Shown: positions 1 to 9,634 of the stretch, piece after piece
Layout: each line of letters starts with the position of its first letter
How positions within the stretch are numbered: position 1 is the first letter of the stretch
DNA from: a bacterium
GTDB taxonomy: Bacteria > JAJRZV01
Assembly (NCBI GenBank): GCA_024275095.1
Contig: JAJRZV010000031.1
Location: 1 to 10,078, forward strand
Length of the DNA stretch: 10,078 nucleotides
Reading direction: 5' to 3'
Translations under genes and position numbers: made by a program
The notes under the pieces: generated by a model
Database searches by the model: none
The model's input: the letters and a program-made list of their open reading frames with translations, nothing else
What the model was told of the DNA's origin: nothing

Positions 1-551
1 CCGAGAGCTCCAGGTATAATCCACGCGTGAAGCGTAAAAAACCGCTGGTTGAGTGGCAGACCCCCAGCATCTGTGAAAGCAGATTTGATAATTTTACCCA
101 CCAGGGGTACCTGTGAGGCAATATTGAGGCCCACAACAGAAGCCCAGAGACTTCTCTCGTCCCCTGCAAGACTGTAACCTGTAAAGCACAACCCCAGCGT
201 AAGAATCATCAGGAAACAACCTGTGTACCATCTGAAAGTACCACGCGAAGCAAAATCCGCGGTCAGTGAAGTCCTGAACACATGCAGTAAAAGAAGCGCC
301 ACTATAAAATCTGCGGTCCAGCGATGCAGTCCTCTTATCCACCACCCGAATGGTATGGACTCGGTGATGTTTCTTACACTCGCAAATGGTTGAGCGGGAT
401 TGTAATAAAAAAGCATGAGAACACCGGTGATCACCTGGACTGCGAAAAGGGCCAGAACCACTCCACCGCCTGTATAGGCCAGTCCAGAGTGTGAATCAGG
501 GATTTCTTCGCTGATAACAGTTTCCCAGATGCGCCGTATTTCCGCCTTCAT
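1..551 (-). CDS. Cytochrome b (b6-like) N-terminal half, partial at window edge
   Basis: Membrane cytochrome b subunit of a Rieske/cytochrome b (bc1/b6f-like) quinol oxidoreductase. It would carry two b hemes and the quinone sites. The 183 visible residues contain the first haem-ligand pair H76 and H90 (14 apart, in GLHRWTADF...LLLHVFR) and the first His of the second pair, H175 (in RFFTLHAWIIPG). The 85-residue gap from H90 to H175 matches the family. Wording such as FGWWIRGLHRW and the short N-terminus resemble cytochrome b6 more than mitochondrial cytochrome b. The position where b6 has the Cys that binds haem c(i) reads AYTGGG (Thr27 in place of Cys), so that covalent haem is probably absent. 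The b6 PWDQ loop reads AGDE. The ATG overlaps the Rieske stop codon (ATGA), with GAGGA upstream. The coding sequence runs off the left edge, so whether it is b6-length or full-length is unknown. Confidence 0.9.
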   Translation of the reverse strand, partial: MKAEIRRIWETVISEEIPDSHSGLAYTGGGVVLALFAVQVITGVLMLFYYNPAQPFASVRNITESIPFGWWIRGLHRWTADFIVALLLLHVFRTSLTADFASRGTFRWYTGCFLMILTLGLCFTGYSLAGDERSLWASVVGLNIASQVPLVGKIIKSAFTDAGGLPLNQRFFTLHAWIIPGAL

Positions 552-958
552 CCAGCTTCCTCAATCATGAATACTACGCCCTCTTCCACCTTTACATGTT
601 TCCGCCTCAAAGGCAGAGGCGGAGGACCTTCAAGCACTTTGCCTGTGAGGTCAAATTTGCCTCTGTGGCATGGGCAGAAGAAAATTTTCTCCGCTTTACG
701 AAACACCACCCGACATCCAAGGTGCGTGCACGTGGTGCTCAAAGCAATAATTTTTCCACCGGCTTTTACCAGGGCCAGCTCTTCACCGTTAACCTCCACA
801 AGCATCACCTCACCCTCTTCTATCGCATCTGCCATACCCAGAAAAACCTTCCTTCGTTTCGACCTTTTCCATCGTTGAAGGAAAAGAGCTGAATATCCTG
901 CAGCAAGTAAAACTGCTGCAGCACCAGGCAGTGCCAGGATCAGGTTCCGCCGCTTCAT
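548..958 (-). CDS. Rieske [2Fe-2S] protein
   Basis: Iron-sulfur subunit of the Rieske/cytochrome b complex, passing electrons from quinol to the cytochrome c partner. 136 residues. The N-terminus has a twin Arg (MKRRNLIL) followed by one hydrophobic span at about 5-27, as in Rieske proteins that use the Tat route and keep the signal as an anchor. The cluster motifs are CTHLGC (77-82) and CPCHRG (95-100). Ligands are C77, H79, C95 and H98, and C82 with C97 can form the stabilising disulfide. The typical tail GPPPLPL follows at 111-117. Where high-potential Rieske proteins have CPCHGS-x-Y, this one has CPCHRGKF, so both hydroxyl residues that raise the potential are missing. That fits a low-potential, menaquinone-type chain (inference). 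ATGA overlaps join it to the genes on both sides. The total length is short for the family, with a minimal cluster domain. Confidence 0.93.
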   Translation of the reverse strand: MKRRNLILALPGAAAVLLAAGYSALFLQRWKRSKRRKVFLGMADAIEEGEVMLVEVNGEELALVKAGGKIIALSTTCTHLGCRVVFRKAEKIFFCPCHRGKFDLTGKVLEGPPPLPLRRKHVKVEEGVVFMIEEAG

Positions 959-2106
959 GGGCCACTGCTCCAGCCCCAGGCTTTACCCTCCCCAACATGG
1001 GCGGTGGCGAAAATCCGCACCAGATATACGGCTGCGTCCTTTATTTGAGCCTGTTGATAAACAAGAAGGTCGGGCACCCCCACCACCCGTGGAGGCACAG
1101 TCTTCAAAAAGTCATTCATTGCCGTATCTATGTCTTTCTCCATCCTCTCCAGCCGCTCCTTTACAAAAAACGGCGCATGACACAAACTGCATCGTTCACT
1201 GAGAGATTTTTTTCTTTTGTTGTATTCCGCGTCTTCAACCCAGGTAACGGCAATAAATGAGTAAAGGTTCCCGGAAAGGTTCTCTTTTAAAAGCGTGCGC
1301 AATCTGTCTGCAGCTTTCGACCTCAACCCAGCAAACATGAAACCATAAGGGCTCAGACGCTTGTGATGACAGTAGGCACATGCAGGCGCTCCCGGAGCAC
1401 CCGGAGCCCTGGGCCTCTCGTACACATCCACAAGGCGAAAGGCAGTCCAGTCCTCCTGGCGGGACTCAAACAAACCATGGTGGGCGGAAGCACGATAGGT
1501 TTCTATTTGAGGATGCATCCTTCCCGAGTGACATGAGGTGCATGCGGTGGAACGCCGCGCTTCACTGGCACGAAAAGCATGGGGCCTGTGGCACACTCCG
1601 CACTGTCCCTGCCACCGCGAAACGCGATGGCAATCTGCACAGGGAGATGCGCCCGCCTTCTCTGCTCCAAGAGACACCACAACAGCTTCCCAGGAGCGGT
1701 GGTGGTCACCGGAATGGAGCCCCTGTTCAAAATCCTTTCCCTCTCCGGCATGACACAGTTTGCAGTTCGCTCCACTGACAATTCTTTTTGCCTCTTTTAC
1801 TTCACAGCGTGACGGCGCCTTCACGACCTCTTCCGGAGCCCCCTTCACAGGCACGTGGCATTCTGCACAACCTACAGCCACACGTGCGTGAAGAGATGAC
1901 TCCCACAAAGCAATATCAGCAAGAGCGATGCCCTTGCGCAAATGACAATCAACACATCGGCGCGATGATGGAGGAACTGCAGGTTTGACCTCTTCGTAAA
2001 AAAAATGTTTCTTTCTCGACTCAACATATCCGACAACAATGAGCACTGCGAGCAGGAAGAGTGAGAAAAAAACAATCAGTCTTTTTTTCTCTTCGACATC
2101 CAGCAC
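955..2106 (-). CDS. Membrane-anchored octaheme cytochrome c, HAO-like
   Basis: 383 residues from the preferred GTG at 2106. A single N-terminal membrane span (about residues 9-28) serves as an uncleaved anchor, with the remainder in the periplasm. Eight CxxCH haem sites start at residues 51, 80, 115, 156, 169, 189, 243 and 306. The spacing and context recall the hydroxylamine oxidoreductase/octaheme nitrite reductase family: a Trp-Ser-His stretch (ALWESSLHARVAVGCAECH) before site two, CGVCHRPHAF before site six, and SGRMHPQIETYRASAHHG after it. The tail after the last haem is only about 73 residues, shorter than I expect for a catalytic HAO, whose haem-crosslinking Tyr lies in that region. 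It may therefore be an electron carrier or work reductively. It sits where a cytochrome c1 gene would be, between the flavoprotein gene and the Rieske gene, so it is probably the electron-accepting subunit. The HAO assignment rests on remembered motifs, not a search. Confidence 0.82.
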   Translation of the reverse strand: MLDVEEKKRLIVFFSLFLLAVLIVVGYVESRKKHFFYEEVKPAVPPSSRRCVDCHLRKGIALADIALWESSLHARVAVGCAECHVPVKGAPEEVVKAPSRCEVKEAKRIVSGANCKLCHAGEGKDFEQGLHSGDHHRSWEAVVVSLGAEKAGASPCADCHRVSRWQGQCGVCHRPHAFRASEARRSTACTSCHSGRMHPQIETYRASAHHGLFESRQEDWTAFRLVDVYERPRAPGAPGAPACAYCHHKRLSPYGFMFAGLRSKAADRLRTLLKENLSGNLYSFIAVTWVEDAEYNKRKKSLSERCSLCHAPFFVKERLERMEKDIDTAMNDFLKTVPPRVVGVPDLLVYQQAQIKDAAVYLVRIFATAHVGEGKAWGWSSGP

Positions 2107-2110
2107 GGTC

Positions 2111-2117
2111 ACCTCCT
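2111..2117 (-). promoter_or_regulatory. Ribosome binding site that decides the octaheme gene start
   Basis: The minus strand reads AGGAGGTGACCGTG. An earlier in-frame GTG (2110-2112) lies inside this near-perfect Shine-Dalgarno sequence and cannot use it. The GTG at 2104-2106 sits five bases after AGGAGG and is the better start. The flavoprotein stop codon TAG (2116-2118) overlaps the site, so ribosomes finishing the flavoprotein end on it. This points to translational coupling. Confidence 0.7.
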
Positions 2118-3594
2118 ATATGAGATGGAGCTCCAGTTCCTTTCTAATCTGATAAAAACATTCTATGGCGCTTCTCGCTGCCAGTTCCGTACCAACCCCT
2201 CTGGCACCGGCACAATCACCTGCCAGGTAAAGCCCCTTCACCGGGGTTCTGTGAGGTAATCTATCCCCTCCTACCTGGCCGACCACCTGACCTGTACTGA
2301 TAGCAGGTGCTCCTGTTTTCCCGATCCATCGTTCGGTAAATTTCACGTCGAACCTGTCCACCCAGAGAATATTATTTCTCAAACCTGGGACCATCTCGTC
2401 GAGAGCGTCCAGCAGTGCATCAAGCCACTTTTCAGGCGGGTCTTTCAGCGGCACATTCGTGGTTGGTGCAACGGCACAGGCTGTGATGAGCTGGGTACCT
2501 GCCGGGGCCAGCGAAGGGTCAAAATTGGTGGGAATCGGTGCGTAAACAGGAAGTATGGCGGGTATGCGACCATCTTCAACATCCGCGTAAATCCGTCGAA
2601 AGTCATCAACGGAGAGCCGGCGAAAATCAATGCTCCGGTCTCTCGCAACTCCCCCTACCAGACACCCGCACTTGAGAAGTTTCTTTTCCAAGGCCACCTT
2701 GACCTGAACAGCGATAAAGGACCCCGCTGTTTCATTCACAGCTTTAATGTACTCCTGTGGGAAATGTTCGTGGCCCACCATTTTTACCGTGTCTTTTGCT
2801 GAAGTAGTACTCACAACAATGTCCGCCTCTATTTCACGCCCACTTTCCAGAATGACACTTTTGACTTTTCCGTTATCAACTCCTATCGACCTCACTCCAT
2901 CATTCACAATCACTTCCGCCCCGCACTCCTCTGCTCTTTCAACAAATGTGCCCGGCACCCGCCAGGCACCGCCTGCAGGGTAGCTCAATCGCATGTCGTT
3001 AAACATGCGACGGTAACAGTAAAGAGCTTCACCTGCGGAAACCCTCCACATGGGGAGAACAAAGTACAGACCCAGGAGAAACCCGAAAAATCCCATCAAC
3101 CCAGGGTTCTGTACATAATCGAATATGAATTCTTCTATCGTGCGTCTGTCATTCATTTCGCACTCTTCATCGCTGATCGTGGCCATCTTCCACAACAATT
3201 TGATTGCAGGAGGGATCTCTCCCGGCCTCAGCCTCATCTGATAAAACAACTTTGCAAAAAACATGGGGAGTTTCCACTTCTCAGCAGGAAGTACAATATT
3301 AAAACCCAGGCCCCGAGCCTCGGACAGGCGGGAGATCTGCCTGAATTCTATTTTCTTTTCCACGCCGCACAACCACTGGGCCAGGCCTATGGGACCTTTA
3401 TCGCCTCTCGAAAACATATGGGTGCCGATGTCCACTGTGAATCCATCCCTTGTGTAGTAAGAACACGAGCCCCCAATGCGCGGGTTTTTCTCGACCAGCG
3501 TCACCGGAAATCCGTGTGAAGCAAACAGGGCAGCAGCCACGCTGCCGCCAATTCCTGAACCAATAACGACAACCTGACTACTTTTCTCCTTCAT
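2116..3594 (-). CDS. FAD-dependent oxidoreductase, phytoene desaturase/carotenoid isomerase (CrtI-like) family
   Basis: 492-residue flavoprotein of the CrtI/CrtISO/retinol saturase superfamily. These enzymes oxidise, reduce or isomerise double bonds in long hydrophobic molecules. The N-terminal dinucleotide fold is clear: VVVIGSGIGGS at 8-18, then VEKNPRIGGS with the acidic residue ending the second strand. VDIGTHMF follows, as in the family. The C-terminal FAD motif is GLYLAGDCAGARGVGTE (about 454-470) with AARSA after it. The middle part is hydrophobic and likely membrane-associated. ATG 3594 was chosen because it leaves the usual short lead before the FAD fold. A TTG at 3630 would add 12 unlikely residues. 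The gene overlaps the TetR gene by 17 bases and ends in the ribosome binding site of the octaheme gene. No carotenoid synthesis genes are nearby, so the substrate is unknown. Family call is firm, reaction is not. Confidence 0.85.
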   Translation of the reverse strand: MKEKSSQVVVIGSGIGGSVAAALFASHGFPVTLVEKNPRIGGSCSYYTRDGFTVDIGTHMFSRGDKGPIGLAQWLCGVEKKIEFRQISRLSEARGLGFNIVLPAEKWKLPMFFAKLFYQMRLRPGEIPPAIKLLWKMATISDEECEMNDRRTIEEFIFDYVQNPGLMGFFGFLLGLYFVLPMWRVSAGEALYCYRRMFNDMRLSYPAGGAWRVPGTFVERAEECGAEVIVNDGVRSIGVDNGKVKSVILESGREIEADIVVSTTSAKDTVKMVGHEHFPQEYIKAVNETAGSFIAVQVKVALEKKLLKCGCLVGGVARDRSIDFRRLSVDDFRRIYADVEDGRIPAILPVYAPIPTNFDPSLAPAGTQLITACAVAPTTNVPLKDPPEKWLDALLDALDEMVPGLRNNILWVDRFDVKFTERWIGKTGAPAISTGQVVGQVGGDRLPHRTPVKGLYLAGDCAGARGVGTELAARSAIECFYQIRKELELHLI

Positions 3595-4201
3595 TCTGTT
3601 GAAGACCGTACAGAAGGATATCCAGCACAATATCCTTGTGTTTATCCACTACTTCCCTTGAATAGAGGTCCTTCCCTCCAAAAATCATTTTCCCCAATTC
3701 ACCGGAGATAAAATGAAACGCACACATGCCGAGTACTATCTGGATAATGTATTCAGCGGGAAAATCCTTGAGCCTTCCCGTGCGCACACCCAGTTCTATA
3801 AAAACCTTGAGGGAATCAAGCAAAATCTTCCCCTCGCTGCGAATCATGTCCATTAAAATGCGGTCCTTATCCACCAGCCCTCTGTGGGCGAGTTCGACCA
3901 GTTCCCTGTTGGACGCAAAAAAATCAATAATGTATGAAATGAGCTCTTTTGCCCTTTCAATATAATCCGTCTCTTTGGCCATGGAAGATGAAAAAGATTC
4001 ACTTACTCTCATGTAGATACTTTTCAACACTTCCCTGTAAAGTTCGCGTTTGGATGGGAAATAATAGTAAAGCGATGCCTTGTTCATTCCACAGGCTTTT
4101 GCTATCGCCTCCATGGTGGTGGCCCTGTAACCCTTTCTGGCAAACATGCGGCTGGCCACTGTGAGGATATGGTCTTTGTTTTTAAAGGAAACCTTGGGCA
4201 T
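3578..4201 (-). CDS. TetR/AcrR-family transcriptional regulator
   Basis: 207 residues, normal length for the family. The N-terminal DNA-binding domain covers about 8-55. ILTVASRMFARKGYRATTM leads into the helix-turn-helix, and MNKASLYYYFPSKRELY is the typical recognition helix and following turn. The remainder is a helical ligand-binding and dimerisation domain with low conservation, so the inducer cannot be read from sequence. TetR regulators usually repress and often control divergent genes and their own operon. Here it is the first gene of the minus-strand string and faces the SDR gene across a 298-base gap containing a perfect inverted repeat. A regulator responding to a hydrophobic or acyl-type ligand would suit the neighbouring enzymes (inference). 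The ribosome binding site is weak (AAAGTGG before ATG). Confidence 0.92.
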   Translation of the reverse strand: MPKVSFKNKDHILTVASRMFARKGYRATTMEAIAKACGMNKASLYYYFPSKRELYREVLKSIYMRVSESFSSSMAKETDYIERAKELISYIIDFFASNRELVELAHRGLVDKDRILMDMIRSEGKILLDSLKVFIELGVRTGRLKDFPAEYIIQIVLGMCAFHFISGELGKMIFGGKDLYSREVVDKHKDIVLDILLYGLQQNEGEK

Positions 4202-4458: not shown

Positions 4459-4472
4459 GTTACTAAAGTAAC
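4459..4472. promoter_or_regulatory. Candidate TetR operator (inverted repeat)
   Basis: GTTACT-AA-AGTAAC is a perfect inverted repeat with six-base arms, of the size and symmetry usual for TetR-family operators. It ends 27 bases before the SDR start codon. A looser outer symmetry exists as well: ATTGTTTACTTTG (4434-4446) against the reverse complement of 4463-4475, differing by one inserted base and a terminal mismatch. A weak plus-strand promoter reading is TTTACT (4438-4443), 17 bases, TACTAA (4461-4466), which would place the palindrome over the -10 so that binding would block the SDR gene. Confidence 0.6.
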
Positions 4473-4499: not shown

Positions 4500-5636
4500 A
4501 TGAGGGTAGTTATCACAGGAAGCACTGGATTCTTAGGCAGTCACATAGTGGACTATTTTGCCCGCGACGGGTTTGAGTGCATTGCCACCGACCGGCCCGG
4601 TTCAGATTTTTCAGTAAACGAGCGTGCAGGAGCCATAATCAAGCCGCTCGACCTCATCAAAGAAGACCCCACTCCGCTCCTCGAAAACACTGACGTTGTC
4701 GTCCATGTCGCAGGTGTGTTTGACCTGAAGGCTCCCAAAGAGCTCTTATGGGCCGTGAATGTGGAAGGCGCACGGAAAATGGCGGACGCTGCGCTTAACG
4801 TTGGAGTGAAAAAATTCATCCACATCTCGTCCACGGGGGTGTACGGGAAGCCGGCACGCATCCCGTGCCATGAAGAGGACCGGAAAAAACCCCGCAACAA
4901 TTACGAACTTACAAAATGGGAAGGAGCAAAGGCAGTGGTTGAATACTACGAGAAAAAAGGGCTCCCGGTGGTGGTGTTCAGACCCACCCTCATCTACGGC
5001 CCCCGCAGTCGCTACGGCCACGCCATGGCCATAGGTGCACTCGCGCTTATCAAAGCGCTGGGAAGAAAACTGGACTACATGCTCAACGGCGGTCCCATGG
5101 AGCACAGCGTCCACGTGGAAGACGTGGCACGTGCAGCACTTTACGCGGCAAAAAACGACTCCATGGTCGGTAACGCCTACAACGTGGCAGATGAAACCCC
5201 GGTGCCTCTTGGAGAAATGATGAAAGCCATCATGGACGCCCTCGGCGTTGAAGCCAGAAAATCCATCAAGTACATACCATTCCTGTGGAAAATCATGGTT
5301 ACCCTGGTGTTGATGCTTCCGTCTGCACTTGAACGACGCCTGAACCGCGACCTGGAAAAGCTGTGGAGAAAGGTGATGAAAAAACTGGACATGGAATCCC
5401 CCTTTATTCCACGCATTGACAAGGGCTGGCTCAAGTACGTGGGTGTCAGCAACGTGTATTCCAACGAGAAGTTGAAAAAGACAGGCTTCGAATTCAAGTT
5501 CCCCGACTATCGCAAAGGCATGGAAGAAACCATTCGGTGGTATATCAATCACGGGTGGATACCGGACAGGATCATCCCGCGCGAAAAACCATCAAAAGGC
5601 CAAGCACAAATAAAAGAAGAGCAAAAAAACGCCTGA
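4500..5636 (+). CDS. Extended SDR, NAD-dependent epimerase / 3-beta-hydroxysteroid dehydrogenase-like
   Basis: 378-residue atypical/extended short-chain dehydrogenase. The Rossmann motif is ITGSTGFLGSH at 5-15. D31 at the end of the second strand suggests NAD(H), although R32 next to it could admit NADP. The active-site residues are Ser/Thr in HISSTGVYG (108-116) and YELTK (Y135, K139). GPMEHSVHVEDVA (198-210) is typical of the 3-beta-HSD/epimerase group. A hydrophobic stretch at about 258-275 (FLWKIMVTLVLMLP) may dock on a membrane, as in 3-beta-HSD enzymes. The C-terminal 20 residues are charged and probably disordered. ATG 4500 is chosen because GGGGAGGAG (4487-4495) precedes it; an upstream TTG lies within that region. 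Divergent from TetR and behind the palindrome, so probably controlled by it. The 3' end overlaps the transporter gene by 65 bases. A sugar-nucleotide substrate is possible, but no sugar genes are nearby. Confidence 0.88.
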   Translation: MRVVITGSTGFLGSHIVDYFARDGFECIATDRPGSDFSVNERAGAIIKPLDLIKEDPTPLLENTDVVVHVAGVFDLKAPKELLWAVNVEGARKMADAALNVGVKKFIHISSTGVYGKPARIPCHEEDRKKPRNNYELTKWEGAKAVVEYYEKKGLPVVVFRPTLIYGPRSRYGHAMAIGALALIKALGRKLDYMLNGGPMEHSVHVEDVARAALYAAKNDSMVGNAYNVADETPVPLGEMMKAIMDALGVEARKSIKYIPFLWKIMVTLVLMLPSALERRLNRDLEKLWRKVMKKLDMESPFIPRIDKGWLKYVGVSNVYSNEKLKKTGFEFKFPDYRKGMEETIRWYINHGWIPDRIIPREKPSKGQAQIKEEQKNA

Positions 5637-6351
5637 GCCACACGGCACGGCTGATAGCAGCGAGGCGTGCTCCAGCTACCGAGAAAAACAGGCTGAAGGC
5701 CGCCACAGCAATCCCGGCACGAAAGTCAACCCAGCCTTTCCAGATATACCCGCCCGTGCCCACCACAGCGTTGATAAACACAATGAAAGAAGATGTCCCG
5801 ACCGCACTGTGAATGCCCGCGCGGAGAAAAAACACCTGAAGGGGCACCGCCACAACACCTCCACCGACCCCGAAGTAACTGGAAATAACCCCTGCTGCAA
5901 AACCCACAAGCAGGTTCCTGAACAGCGTATCCGTGCCACCACCGCCCTCTTCAAACACGCCGGCCCTTCTGGAAAACATGTACACCGCCACGGCAATCTC
6001 AAAAAAACCAAAGAGCTTCATCACCACAGAAGCACCGGAATGAACATTCAGGTTGACTCCAAGCACAACTCCAGCCAGGCCTCCTGCAGCAATCTGCAGG
6101 CCCCTTCGCATGTCCACATTTTTGTGGTAAAGGTGTGTCACAAAAGCTGCGAAAGAATTTACCACAATCACGAATAATGATGTGGCCACAGCAACGTGAC
6201 CAAGTATCTCCGATGAATATCTACCCTGCAACACAAAGTAAAAAAAGGGCACAAGTATAACACCGCCGCCTATTCCAAGATGCCCGGCCAAAAAAGCTGC
6301 TGCTCCTCCAGCAGCGCCCCACCACAGATACGTGATAAAAAAATTACTCAC
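5572..6351 (-). CDS. TauE/SafE-family membrane transporter (sulfite exporter family)
   Basis: 259-residue integral membrane protein with about eight hydrophobic spans. The internal duplication that defines TauE/SafE is visible. GHLGIGGGVILVPFF (23-37) pairs with SYFGVGGGVVAVPLQ (158-172), and HVAVATSLFVIVVNS (52-66) pairs with HSAVGTSSFIVFINA (181-195). Known members move sulfite, sulfoacetate or other small organic or sulfur anions; the substrate here is not readable from sequence. The GTG start lies inside the end of the pycB gene (8-base overlap, GTGAGTAA), so it is the third gene of the pyruvate carboxylase operon. This context raises a carboxylate anion as a candidate substrate (inference). 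Its last 65 bases are antisense to the end of the SDR gene. Confidence 0.87.
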   Translation of the reverse strand: MSNFFITYLWWGAAGGAAAFLAGHLGIGGGVILVPFFYFVLQGRYSSEILGHVAVATSLFVIVVNSFAAFVTHLYHKNVDMRRGLQIAAGGLAGVVLGVNLNVHSGASVVMKLFGFFEIAVAVYMFSRRAGVFEEGGGGTDTLFRNLLVGFAAGVISSYFGVGGGVVAVPLQVFFLRAGIHSAVGTSSFIVFINAVVGTGGYIWKGWVDFRAGIAVAAFSLFFSVAGARLAAISRAVWLRRFFALLLFVLGLLMVFRAG

Positions 6352-8196
6352 TCACTTCTATGGATACTAAAGTTTCATCCGGCTGTACATTATCGCCGGG
6401 ATTTACAAATACCTCTTTTACCATACCCCTGACAGGTGCGCGAATTTCGTTCTCCATCTTCATGGCTTCCACGATGAGCAGCACATCGCCTTTTTCAACC
6501 ACGTCGCCCACGTTCACATTTACCTTCACCACCGTCCCCGGCACAAGTGTAACCACGTCTCCGGGACCCTTCGGTCTCGGCCGGCCGAGTTTCCTTTTAT
6601 CCTCAACGGCAACAATTTCTCCAATTTCCGTGGGGAGCACCTCTACCAGCGGTTCAATGATCACTTCTTCCACTATTCCATCTATTTTCAGGAAATACGT
6701 TCTCCTTCCCGAGGCTCTGGGTGAAACACCGGACACCTTCACATGGTATGTGTCACCGTGAACCGTCATGTGAAACTCGCTTGGTGCATACCGAATGTGC
6801 GGGACTTCTTCTTCCGCTTCTTCTTCGGGAATCTCTTCCTCGTGAGGGTGTTCCTTGTAATCCAAGAATTCAAGAAACACGGCGGGAAAAAGCGTGTACG
6901 AAAGTACATCCTCAATTGACCTGGCACGGTCTCCCAGTTCCTTCGTGCTTTTTTCCAGTTCGGGCTCCAGGAGATCCGCCGGCCTCACGTCCACAACATC
7001 CTCATCACCGAGAATTTTCCGCCTCAGTTCCTCATCGACCGTTCCAGGAGGCCTTCCGTAAAGCCCTTTCAGGTAGTTGCGCGTTTCATTGGTGACCACC
7101 CTGTAACGCTCGCCGGTGAGAACATTCAGTGTTGCCTGAGTACCAACAATCTGGCTGGTGGGAGTCACCAGCGGCGGATATCCGAAGTCACGGCGTACGT
7201 TCGGCACCTCGCGAAGAACCTCATTCATCCGGTCCAGAGCATTCTGTTCCTTCAACTGGTTGGCCAGGTTGGAAATCATACCGCCGGGTATCTGCCACAC
7301 GAGCACGGAAGGGTTTACAGTGTTGAATTCGCTCTCGTATTCTTTGTACTTCTTTCTCACCTTTCGAAAATAATGAGCGATTTCCTCAAGTAATTTCAAA
7401 TCAAGGCCCGTATCATACTCCGTACCTTTCAATGCAGCCACGATGGTCTCTGTGGGAGGTTGAGATGTACCTGATGCAAATGGCGAAACAGCGGTGTCAA
7501 GTATGCGCACTCCACTCTCTACGGCCTTGAGATAAGTGGCGGTACCCATACCACTCGTTTCATGAGTATGCAGGTGAACAGGAACACGCAGGCGCTCCGT
7601 CATCCGACCTATCAGTTCTTCCGCCGCATAAGGTGAAAGCAATCCTGCCATATCCTTGATGCAGATAATATCCGCTCCCATCTCCACCAGCCGTTCACCC
7701 AGTTCCACAAAATACTCCGGGCTGTGTACAGGTGAAATCGTGTAGCACACAGCGGCTTCGACAATCTTTCCGTGCTTCTTGACGGCGCGTATTGAAGATT
7801 CCATATTTCTTATATCGTTGAGAGCATCAAAAATTCGGAAGATATCAATACCATTTTCCGCAGCCTTTTCCACGAACACCTCTACGACATCGTCTGCATA
7901 ATGCCTGTAACCAACGAGGTTCTGGCCTCTCAAAAGCATCTGGAGCTGCGTGTCCTTCACCTTTCCCGGATAGCGCGCAAACGCTCCCAGGGATCCTCCT
8001 TCAGGTACCTCAAGCACGAATCAAAAGTGGCTCCTCCCCAGACCTCCAGAGACCAGTATCCCACCTGATCCAGCTTTTCACAAATAGGGAGCATATCTTC
8101 CGTGCGCATGCGGGTGGCAATGAGAGATTGATGACCATCTCTTAACACGGTTTCGGTAATAAGCACTTTTTTCCCTTTAAACTTCTCCTTCAGCAT
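6344..8196 (-). CDS. pycB: Pyruvate carboxylase subunit B (carboxyltransferase + biotin carrier), with an apparent frameshift
   Basis: Carboxyltransferase subunit that moves CO2 from biotin to pyruvate, giving oxaloacetate, with its own biotin carrier domain. ATG 8196 follows AGGAGGAG (8201-8208). The first 79 codons carry RDGHQS (19-24) and WGGATFD, then hit TGA (7957-7959). The rest continues in the -1 frame: [23 protein letters not shown], the reactive Lys in CIKDMAGLL, the metal His pair in HLHTHET, and the biotin motif EAMKMEN near the C-terminus (Lys about 580 of a repaired 617). One extra A in the AAA run at 7962-7964 restores a family-like protein. Both halves are otherwise intact, so a sequencing/assembly deletion or a very recent mutation is more likely than old decay. 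The acidic linker ([12 protein letters not shown]) before the carrier part is usual. Oxaloacetate decarboxylase alpha subunit is the alternative, but the adjacent biotin carboxylase gene argues for a carboxylase. Confidence 0.88.
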
Positions 8197-8215
8197 GCAA
8201 CTCCTCCTGTAATTT

Positions 8216-9634
8216 TCAAAATCCTTCGTAAGCGGCAATGGCCGCCGCTATGGCAATAACACGGTGGTAAGGGTCTTCATCGTAATGATAATCGAGAAGT
8301 TCTGGATGCTCCTCAATATAACCGACATAGAATTCTCCTCTCTCAAACGCTTCTGTACTCGCCAGCGCCAGGTGGAAAGGAATGGTCGTTTTCACGCCTT
8401 TTATGACGAACTCCTCGAGTGCACGGCGGGCACGCATAACCGCATCCTTCCAGGTGCGAGCCCACACGGTCAGCTTGGCGATGAGCGAATCGAAATGCGG
8501 AGGGACGATGTAATCCTTGTAAACCGCGCCGTCAATGCGCACTCCTGTACCACCCGGCGAATAATAAGCAGTTATACGGCCGGAGCTCGGTGCAAAGTTG
8601 CGCTTGGGGTCTTCAGCATTTACACGAAATTCAATCGCGTTTCCGTAAATCGAAACATCCCTCTGCTCAAAAGAAATGCGTTCTCCTGAAGCAATGCGAA
8701 GCTGCTCCTTTACTATGTCAATACCGGTAATACTTTCGGTTACAGGGTGCTCTACCTGCAGGCGTGGGTTAACCTCCATGAAATAATACTTCCCGCTGGA
8801 ATCAACCAGAAACTCCACTGTACCTGCGTTCACATAACCAGTGTACCGTGCGATTCCCATGGCTGCTTCAGCCATCTCCTGACGTGTCGGCTCGTCGAGT
8901 ATCAGTGACGGAGCGATCTCCACGAGCTTCTGGTTCTTTCTCTGCAGGCTGCAATCGCGTTCAAAAAGATGGCGTATGTTACCGTGTGAATCGGTGATAA
9001 TCTGCACCTCCACGTGATGTGGACGTTCGATGAACTTCTCGATAAACACTTCCCCGCTTCCGAAAAACTTTTCTGCCTGGGACGAAGCACTGGCGAGCTC
9101 TGAAGCGAGGTCCTCAGGAGACTCCACCTTCCTGATCCCCCGACCTCCACCACCGTAAGAGGCCTTTATCAGCACGGGATAGCCCACCTCCGCCGCCACG
9201 GCTTCTGCCTCTTCTGCACTCTGAACAGGCCCTTCCGAGCCCGGAATAACGGGAACTCCGAGCTTCTTCGCAATGGCCTTCGACCGCTGCTTGTCACCCA
9301 AAAGGCGCAGCGTTTCTGGATTGGGACCGACAAAAATGAGCCCCTTTTTTCTGCAAAGTTCAGCAAACTCTGCTTTCTCAGATATAAATCCATATCCCGG
9401 GTGCACAGCGTCCGCGCCACAACTCACAGCGATGTGAACAATGACTTCGGGATCAAGGAATGAAGCCACAGGATCACCTTCGAGCAGGTGTGCTTCATCT
9501 GCTTTTTTTATGTAAAGTGCTGTGGAATCCACTTCAGGGTAGATAACCGCTGTCTTGATGCCGAGTTCTTTACAGGCCCTGATAATTCGGCTCGCAACTT
9601 CACCCCTGTTGGCTATCAGTACCTTCCTGATCAC
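8216..9634 (-). CDS. pycA: Pyruvate carboxylase subunit A (biotin carboxylase, ATP-grasp)
   Basis: 472-residue biotin carboxylase that uses ATP and bicarbonate to carboxylate biotin on the partner subunit. [16 protein letters not shown] opens the protein. HPGYGFISE is at 78-86, the ATP-binding Gly loop GGGGRG at 161-166, and the metal/bicarbonate site [14 protein letters not shown] at 287-300. The NPR wording is closer to pyruvate carboxylase than to the NTR form of acetyl-CoA carboxylase AccC. The C-terminal tail ending [14 protein letters not shown] is like stand-alone PycA proteins. The GTG start has AAGGAG (9642-9647) seven bases upstream. The stop lies 19 bases before the pycB start, so the two are co-transcribed. 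The likely role is anaplerotic oxaloacetate supply. A 2-oxoglutarate carboxylase is a possible alternative, since those subunits look alike. Confidence 0.92.

Follow-up and report, generated by a model that had tools for sequence, protein, structure and literature searches.

Our analysis suggests, with moderate confidence, that the genes described here belong to a TetR-headed catabolic operon of ~13 genes, in which a CrtI-like dehydrogenase shares the quinone pool with an octaheme-type Rieske/cytochrome b complex and is not a subunit of that complex. The analyzed stretch of DNA, referred to as the window (10,078 nucleotides), is the entire contig C127 of a genome of 2.45 Mb that is 97% complete. 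No 16S gene was found in this genome, which may be unplaced or may represent a lineage of phylum rank.

Gene organization of the locus

The window contains a minus-strand group of closely packed genes, encoding a TetR regulator, a CrtI-like flavoenzyme, an octaheme cytochrome c, a Rieske protein, and a cytochrome b. An earlier note on this DNA had described the last four of these as joined by 4-base overlaps and by a stop codon inside the next ribosome binding site. Inspection of the open reading frames and junctions confirmed this packing, with 4-base overlaps at both the octaheme/Rieske and the Rieske/cytochrome b junctions. The Pfam and NCBIfam assignments of the locus genes, listed below, are far above chance.

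3578..4201, minus strand: TetR-family regulator, first co-directional gene (PF00440, 2.3e-20; PF17938, 2.9e-6)
2116..3594, minus strand: CrtI-type (COG1233-like) FAD oxidoreductase, 492 aa (PF01593, 4.5e-22)
955..2112 (start probably 2106), minus strand: membrane-anchored octaheme cytochrome c of the HAO-like family (8 CXXCH; PF13447, 4.3e-18)
548..958, minus strand: Rieske [2Fe-2S] subunit with one N-terminal TM helix by hydropathy (PF00355, 3.5e-15; CTHLGC/CPCHRG)
1..551, remainder on contig C120 (L005:17617-18193), minus strand: cytochrome b, b6-type with a fused subunit-IV-like half (PF00033 and PF00032 in the joined protein)
4500..5636, plus strand: extended SDR (epimerase/3beta-HSD-like), divergent (PF01370, 7.5e-38)
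4459..4472, no strand: palindrome GTTACTAAAGTAAC between the divergent TetR and SDR genes, just upstream of the latter (0.2 matches expected with ≤2 mismatches)

The TetR gene belongs to the string and opens it, overlapping the start of the CrtI gene by 17 bases, and the intergenic palindrome is a possible candidate for a TetR operator. Further downstream, the TAG stop codon of the CrtI gene sits within the Shine–Dalgarno sequence of the octaheme gene (ATA-TAG-GAGGTGACC-GTG), which makes GTG 2106 a more likely octaheme start than GTG 2112. A terminator scan of the interval between these two genes found no minus-strand terminator-like site. Elsewhere in the window, a frameshift at 7957-8020 on the minus strand interrupts a pyruvate carboxylase B-type gene, whose N-terminus lies in ORF 7957-8238 and whose remainder lies in ORF 6344-8017, in another frame. 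This frameshift is either an assembly indel or real.

Cytochrome b is cut off at the edge of the window only because the contig stops there. The first 141 bases of C127 are identical to the last 141 bases of contig C120 and have no other match genome-wide, a pattern typical of an assembler's leftover at a graph join, from which we infer that the two contigs adjoin. On the C120 side, the string continues with eight more co-directional redox or associated genes. These encode FAD_binding_4 proteins of 422 and 524 aa, a CCG Fe–S protein, a ferredoxin, an AFOR_N-only protein, a BPL_N protein, a NarI-like membrane protein, and a second CCG protein. Across the predicted join, the four-gene set makes up the leading section of a far longer gene string, which holds at least three flavoproteins, the CrtI-like enzyme among them, and is predicted from gene order to be an operon.

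The octaheme/Rieske/cytochrome b core

Read across the join, the full cytochrome b has 328 aa, and alignment with seven relatives showed that its haem ligands His76/90/175/190 and PEWY256 are all present. The Rieske protein carries both Cys–His motifs (CTHLGC...CPCHRG). Given the PF00033, PF00032, and PF00355 matches, the four histidines, and the PEWY-type Qo motif, these two proteins are of the b6f/bc1 type. The octaheme protein has one N-terminal membrane helix, matches PF13447 and HAO-family PDB entries, and contains eight CXXCH motifs, all of which align with those of nine other octahemes in the HAO arrangement. The three genes are thus those of an octaheme/Rieske/cytochrome b complex, as the earlier note had assigned them. 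A canonical bc1 complex was considered and rejected: the complex has no monohaem cytochrome c1 or f, and the HAO-like octaheme stands in that place, as in the octaheme-type sub-kind of these complexes.

Octaheme relatives (E ≤ 1e-12) occur in 17 other genomes of the set of 386. Rieske and cytochrome b genes lie beside the octaheme gene in seven of the ten octaheme loci that were read, and these span six families. Across the seven triplet genomes, the three proteins vary in identity in a broadly parallel way, which indicates that the triplet is passed on as a single module. This core is of an already described kind (PMC5317091, PMC12954380). In locus L044 (2586-11761), hemerythrin/PAS, ArsP-like, and FAD_binding_4–CCG fusion genes come after a triplet, in the same orientation.

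The octaheme of the window has unusual features within its family. Asp267, His268, and Tyr467 are listed as functional residues of HAO (PMC3814345). Alignment to 1fgj places Met199-His200 of the window protein at the positions of Asp267-His268. The Asp267 position is occupied by Asp in eight and by Glu in one of the nine other aligned octahemes, and by Asp in all seven triplet relatives. In addition, the C-terminal segment is missing in the alignment, and the protein ends before the Tyr467 cross-link region of oxidative members. The Met at the Asp267 position and the missing segment point to an electron carrier, and the protein is more likely a wire than a HAO-type (nitrogen-cycle) enzyme, the loss of the active site being read from the sequence alignment. 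Its AlphaFold model is poor (pLDDT 46).

A single-sequence scan of the genome_contigs collection with the octaheme returned no relative. A second HAO-like octaheme of 422 aa, which has the usual DHP motif and no adjoining Rieske or cytochrome b gene, is encoded on contig C8 of the window's own genome (L051:9493-10761). The idea that the window encodes the sole Rieske/b complex of the genome was rejected, since a second one is present on contig C34 (L097:2013-8896). That locus encodes an 8-CXXCH c3/c7-like protein, an Fe–S protein, NrfD, Rieske, cytochrome b, and cytochromes with 9 and 11 CXXCH motifs; its cytochrome b has Gln at one aligned haem-b His. No COX1 family oxidase was detected in the genome, and this, together with the second multihaem Rieske/b complex, fits life on periplasmic multihaem chains.

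The CrtI-like flavoenzyme

The AF2 model of the CrtI-like protein (pLDDT 80.7) best matches the carotenoid desaturase 4rep (Z 34.8, rmsd 2.8, 453 aligned residues), which identifies a CrtI/GDI-type flavoprotein fold and, with the PF01593 match, bears out the family assignment made earlier. Like CrtI, CrtISO, and COG1233 proteins (4rep, 3ka7, 4dgk), the protein shows this fold over 453 residues, the FAD motif, and the C-terminal GDCAGARGVGTE motif. It differs from CrtI and CrtISO in scoring far under the cut-offs for phytoene desaturase (TIGR02734; 85.9 versus 238.1 bits) and carotenoid isomerase (TIGR02730; 86.8 versus 586.9 bits), and it falls in a subfamily without a known reaction. No PF00494 match, and hence no squalene/phytoene synthase, was detected in the 97%-complete genome. 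Based on the scores under the curated cut-offs and the missing synthase, an isoprenoid desaturase was rejected, and an isoprenoid substrate in general is made less likely by the missing synthase.

Members of this subfamily share ~41–51% identity, with one more distant member at 31–33%. They were found at 25 loci in 18 genomes, deposited as Myxococcota, Nitrospirae, Schekmanbacteria, Bacillota, Syntrophomonadaceae, Eisenbacteria, and others, and at six loci from another genome set. Relatives of the octaheme, Rieske, and cytochrome b proteins are absent from the available flanks of all 31 loci, which total 483 kb and include several short ones with incomplete flanks and two (L059 and L074) that are apparently one contig. 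Conversely, none of the seven triplet loci contains a CrtI gene. An octaheme match (E ≤ 1e-5) was present in only five of the 18 genomes carrying the CrtI gene. The order of CrtI, octaheme, Rieske, and cytochrome b genes, whose count in independent lineages the earlier note had proposed as a check, is therefore not conserved across these loci, and the counts speak against the dedicated link to a bc-type complex that it proposed. The combination was seen in this genome only, within a comparison set whose members share just the domain rank with it and include no closer relative. A literature search on CrtI/COG1233 with Rieske and multihaem clusters returned no paper describing the combination. 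The arrangement is unfamiliar, as had been claimed, with respect to the CrtI gene, but not with respect to the published octaheme/Rieske/b core.

Some loci of the subfamily show other associations. The CrtI relative lies in a row with two more CrtI-related genes in L059 (8918-13533) and L060 (9521-14027), one of them HpnE-like in L059. In L088 (9974-16347), it is accompanied within 5 kb by a full-length AFOR and by a 35% identical relative of the window SDR, the latter at a distance of 1.4 kb, which recalls the CrtI/SDR/AFOR content seen here.

Mosaic origin of the gene string

Genes for ferredoxin, short AFOR, and a FAD_binding_4–CCG fusion occur together in the genomes G041, G187, and G320. 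This ferredoxin/short AFOR_N-type/FAD_binding_4–CCG module (L113:6034-10520, L114:8968-13931, and L115:9267-13646) comes from two families, and none of the three loci contains the octaheme/Rieske/b triplet. Recurrence of the module apart from the triplet points to a separate origin of the second operon half. Such comparisons of gene content show the string to be a mosaic with three or more modules that are found separately elsewhere. Like GlcDEF and FAD–CCG 2-hydroxyacid dehydrogenases, it contains two FAD_binding_4 proteins adjoining a CCG Fe–S protein. In contrast to GlcDEF, however, the 524-aa FAD_binding_4 protein has no PF02913 match and is nearer in sequence to VAO/PCMH-type PDB chains; it has no relative at 1e-45 in the 386 genomes.

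Relation to known complexes

In Caldithrix abyssi, the Rieske, cytochrome b, and epsilonHao genes Cabys_2558-2556 lie together in a Nap cluster and were proposed to pass electrons from quinol oxidation to the octaheme (PMC5317091). As in this system, the Rieske, cytochrome b, and HAO-like octaheme genes of the window are neighbours, but the window lacks Nap genes, has flavoenzymes in the operon, and encodes an octaheme that is shortened at the C-terminus and carries Met in place of Asp267. The Caldithrix layout is more closely resembled by loci L041-L043, which are located next to NapA/NapGH-like and tetraheme genes.

Anammox bacteria encode Rieske/cytochrome b complexes with octa/hexaheme cytochromes c and a putative NAD(P) reductase with Fe–S clusters (Kuste4569-4574 and Kustd1480-1485) (PMC12954380). 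These complexes resemble the window in their b6-like Rieske/b proteins, in the octa/hexaheme cytochrome c in place of cytochrome f, and in the flavin oxidoreductase of the gene set. Whereas cytochrome b and subunit IV are separate in the anammox complexes, the window has a single 328-aa cytochrome b and a CrtI-type flavoenzyme. Compared with the NAD(P) subunit of Kuenenia, taken here by its description only, the adjacent PF01593 protein is of the CrtI type and has no Fe–S domain, while other Fe–S flavoprotein genes are present in the string.

A proposed shared quinone pool and alternative readings

From the gene content, gene order, family membership, and flavoenzyme fold established above, we infer electron exchange with quinone as follows. 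The operon would oxidize, or reductively convert, an organic substrate via the quinone pool, a plausible meeting point of flavoenzyme and complex, as the earlier note had also assumed. Electron exchange with (mena)quinone would involve both the CrtI-like enzyme and a GlcD/GlcE/GlcF-like set, which consists of a CCG Fe–S protein and the two FAD_binding_4 proteins, and the ferredoxin, the AFOR_N-only protein, and the NarI-like/CCG pair may be further partners in this exchange. A Q-cycle in the Rieske/b/octaheme complex would then oxidize quinol, and the octaheme, replacing cytochrome c1/f, would hand electrons on to periplasmic multihaem cytochromes. The CrtI-like flavoenzyme would thus be a pathway enzyme linked to the complex through a common quinone pool. 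We favour this model because the continuous co-directional string carries several flavin and Fe–S redox modules, the triplet is co-inherited in seven other genomes, and cytochrome b has PEWY and its full set of four haem b ligands. It is further suggested by the replaced Asp267 and truncated C-terminus of the octaheme, the separation of the CrtI subfamily from these cytochromes in 31 of 31 loci, the separate origin of the second operon half, and the lack of a detected COX1.

The tight coupling between the CrtI and octaheme genes could indicate a closer relation than a shared quinone. The genes could encode a novel, dedicated electron-transfer machine, in which the octaheme/Rieske/b complex has the CrtI-like flavoenzyme as an integral partner, either receiving the electrons that this enzyme takes from a hydrophobic substrate or driving the enzyme in the opposite direction. 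Besides this junction, anammox offers a precedent, since a flavin subunit (a putative NAD(P) oxidoreductase) is joined there to octaheme/Rieske/b complexes (PMC12954380). We nevertheless consider such a partnership very unlikely, as the link is absent from the 31 CrtI-subfamily loci and the seven triplets, and the CrtI-like protein, which has no Fe–S domain, appears to differ in type from the anammox NAD(P) reductase. Equally improbable is a functional unit of the CrtI-like and octaheme/Rieske/b proteins in which hydrophobic-substrate conversion and a periplasmic multihaem chain are directly coupled, possibly through quinone-based bifurcation. The restriction of the CrtI/cytochrome combination to this genome would also be expected if the CrtI-like gene had been inserted behind the TetR promoter in this lineage only, being functionally unrelated to the complex and serving, for example, lipid or secondary-metabolite modification. 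Its relatives adjoin other CrtI/HpnE-like genes, enoyl-CoA hydratases, or nothing common, which is consistent with such an insertion. We regard it as doubtful, however, given the shared strand, the 17-base overlap with TetR, the CrtI stop codon in the next ribosome binding site, and the richness of the string in other redox genes.

A different role for the octaheme was also considered, namely that of a catalytic reductase of nitrite, NO, or another small substrate, fed by Rieske/b as proposed for the Caldithrix epsilonHao, with the flavoenzymes only supplying quinol. Its HAO-like family, its eight haems, and its Rieske/cytochrome b neighbours, which are those of epsilonHao in Nap-type clusters (PMC5317091), agree with this role. 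The Met at the Asp267 position, the missing C-terminal segment, and the lack of adjoining Nap genes make it unlikely.

Implications

Should the CrtI/octaheme/b unit be real after all, its occurrence in one operon with GlcDEF-like and short AFOR modules would constitute an undescribed respiratory pathway in an uncultured, possibly phylum-level lineage. In the favoured model of a shared quinone pool, an octaheme-type Rieske/b complex, hitherto discussed for the nitrogen cycle, is found in a predicted operon of organic-substrate flavoenzymes. If its octaheme is only a wire, the complex would provide a clean case of a multihaem enzyme turned into a c1 substitute in a bc-type complex.
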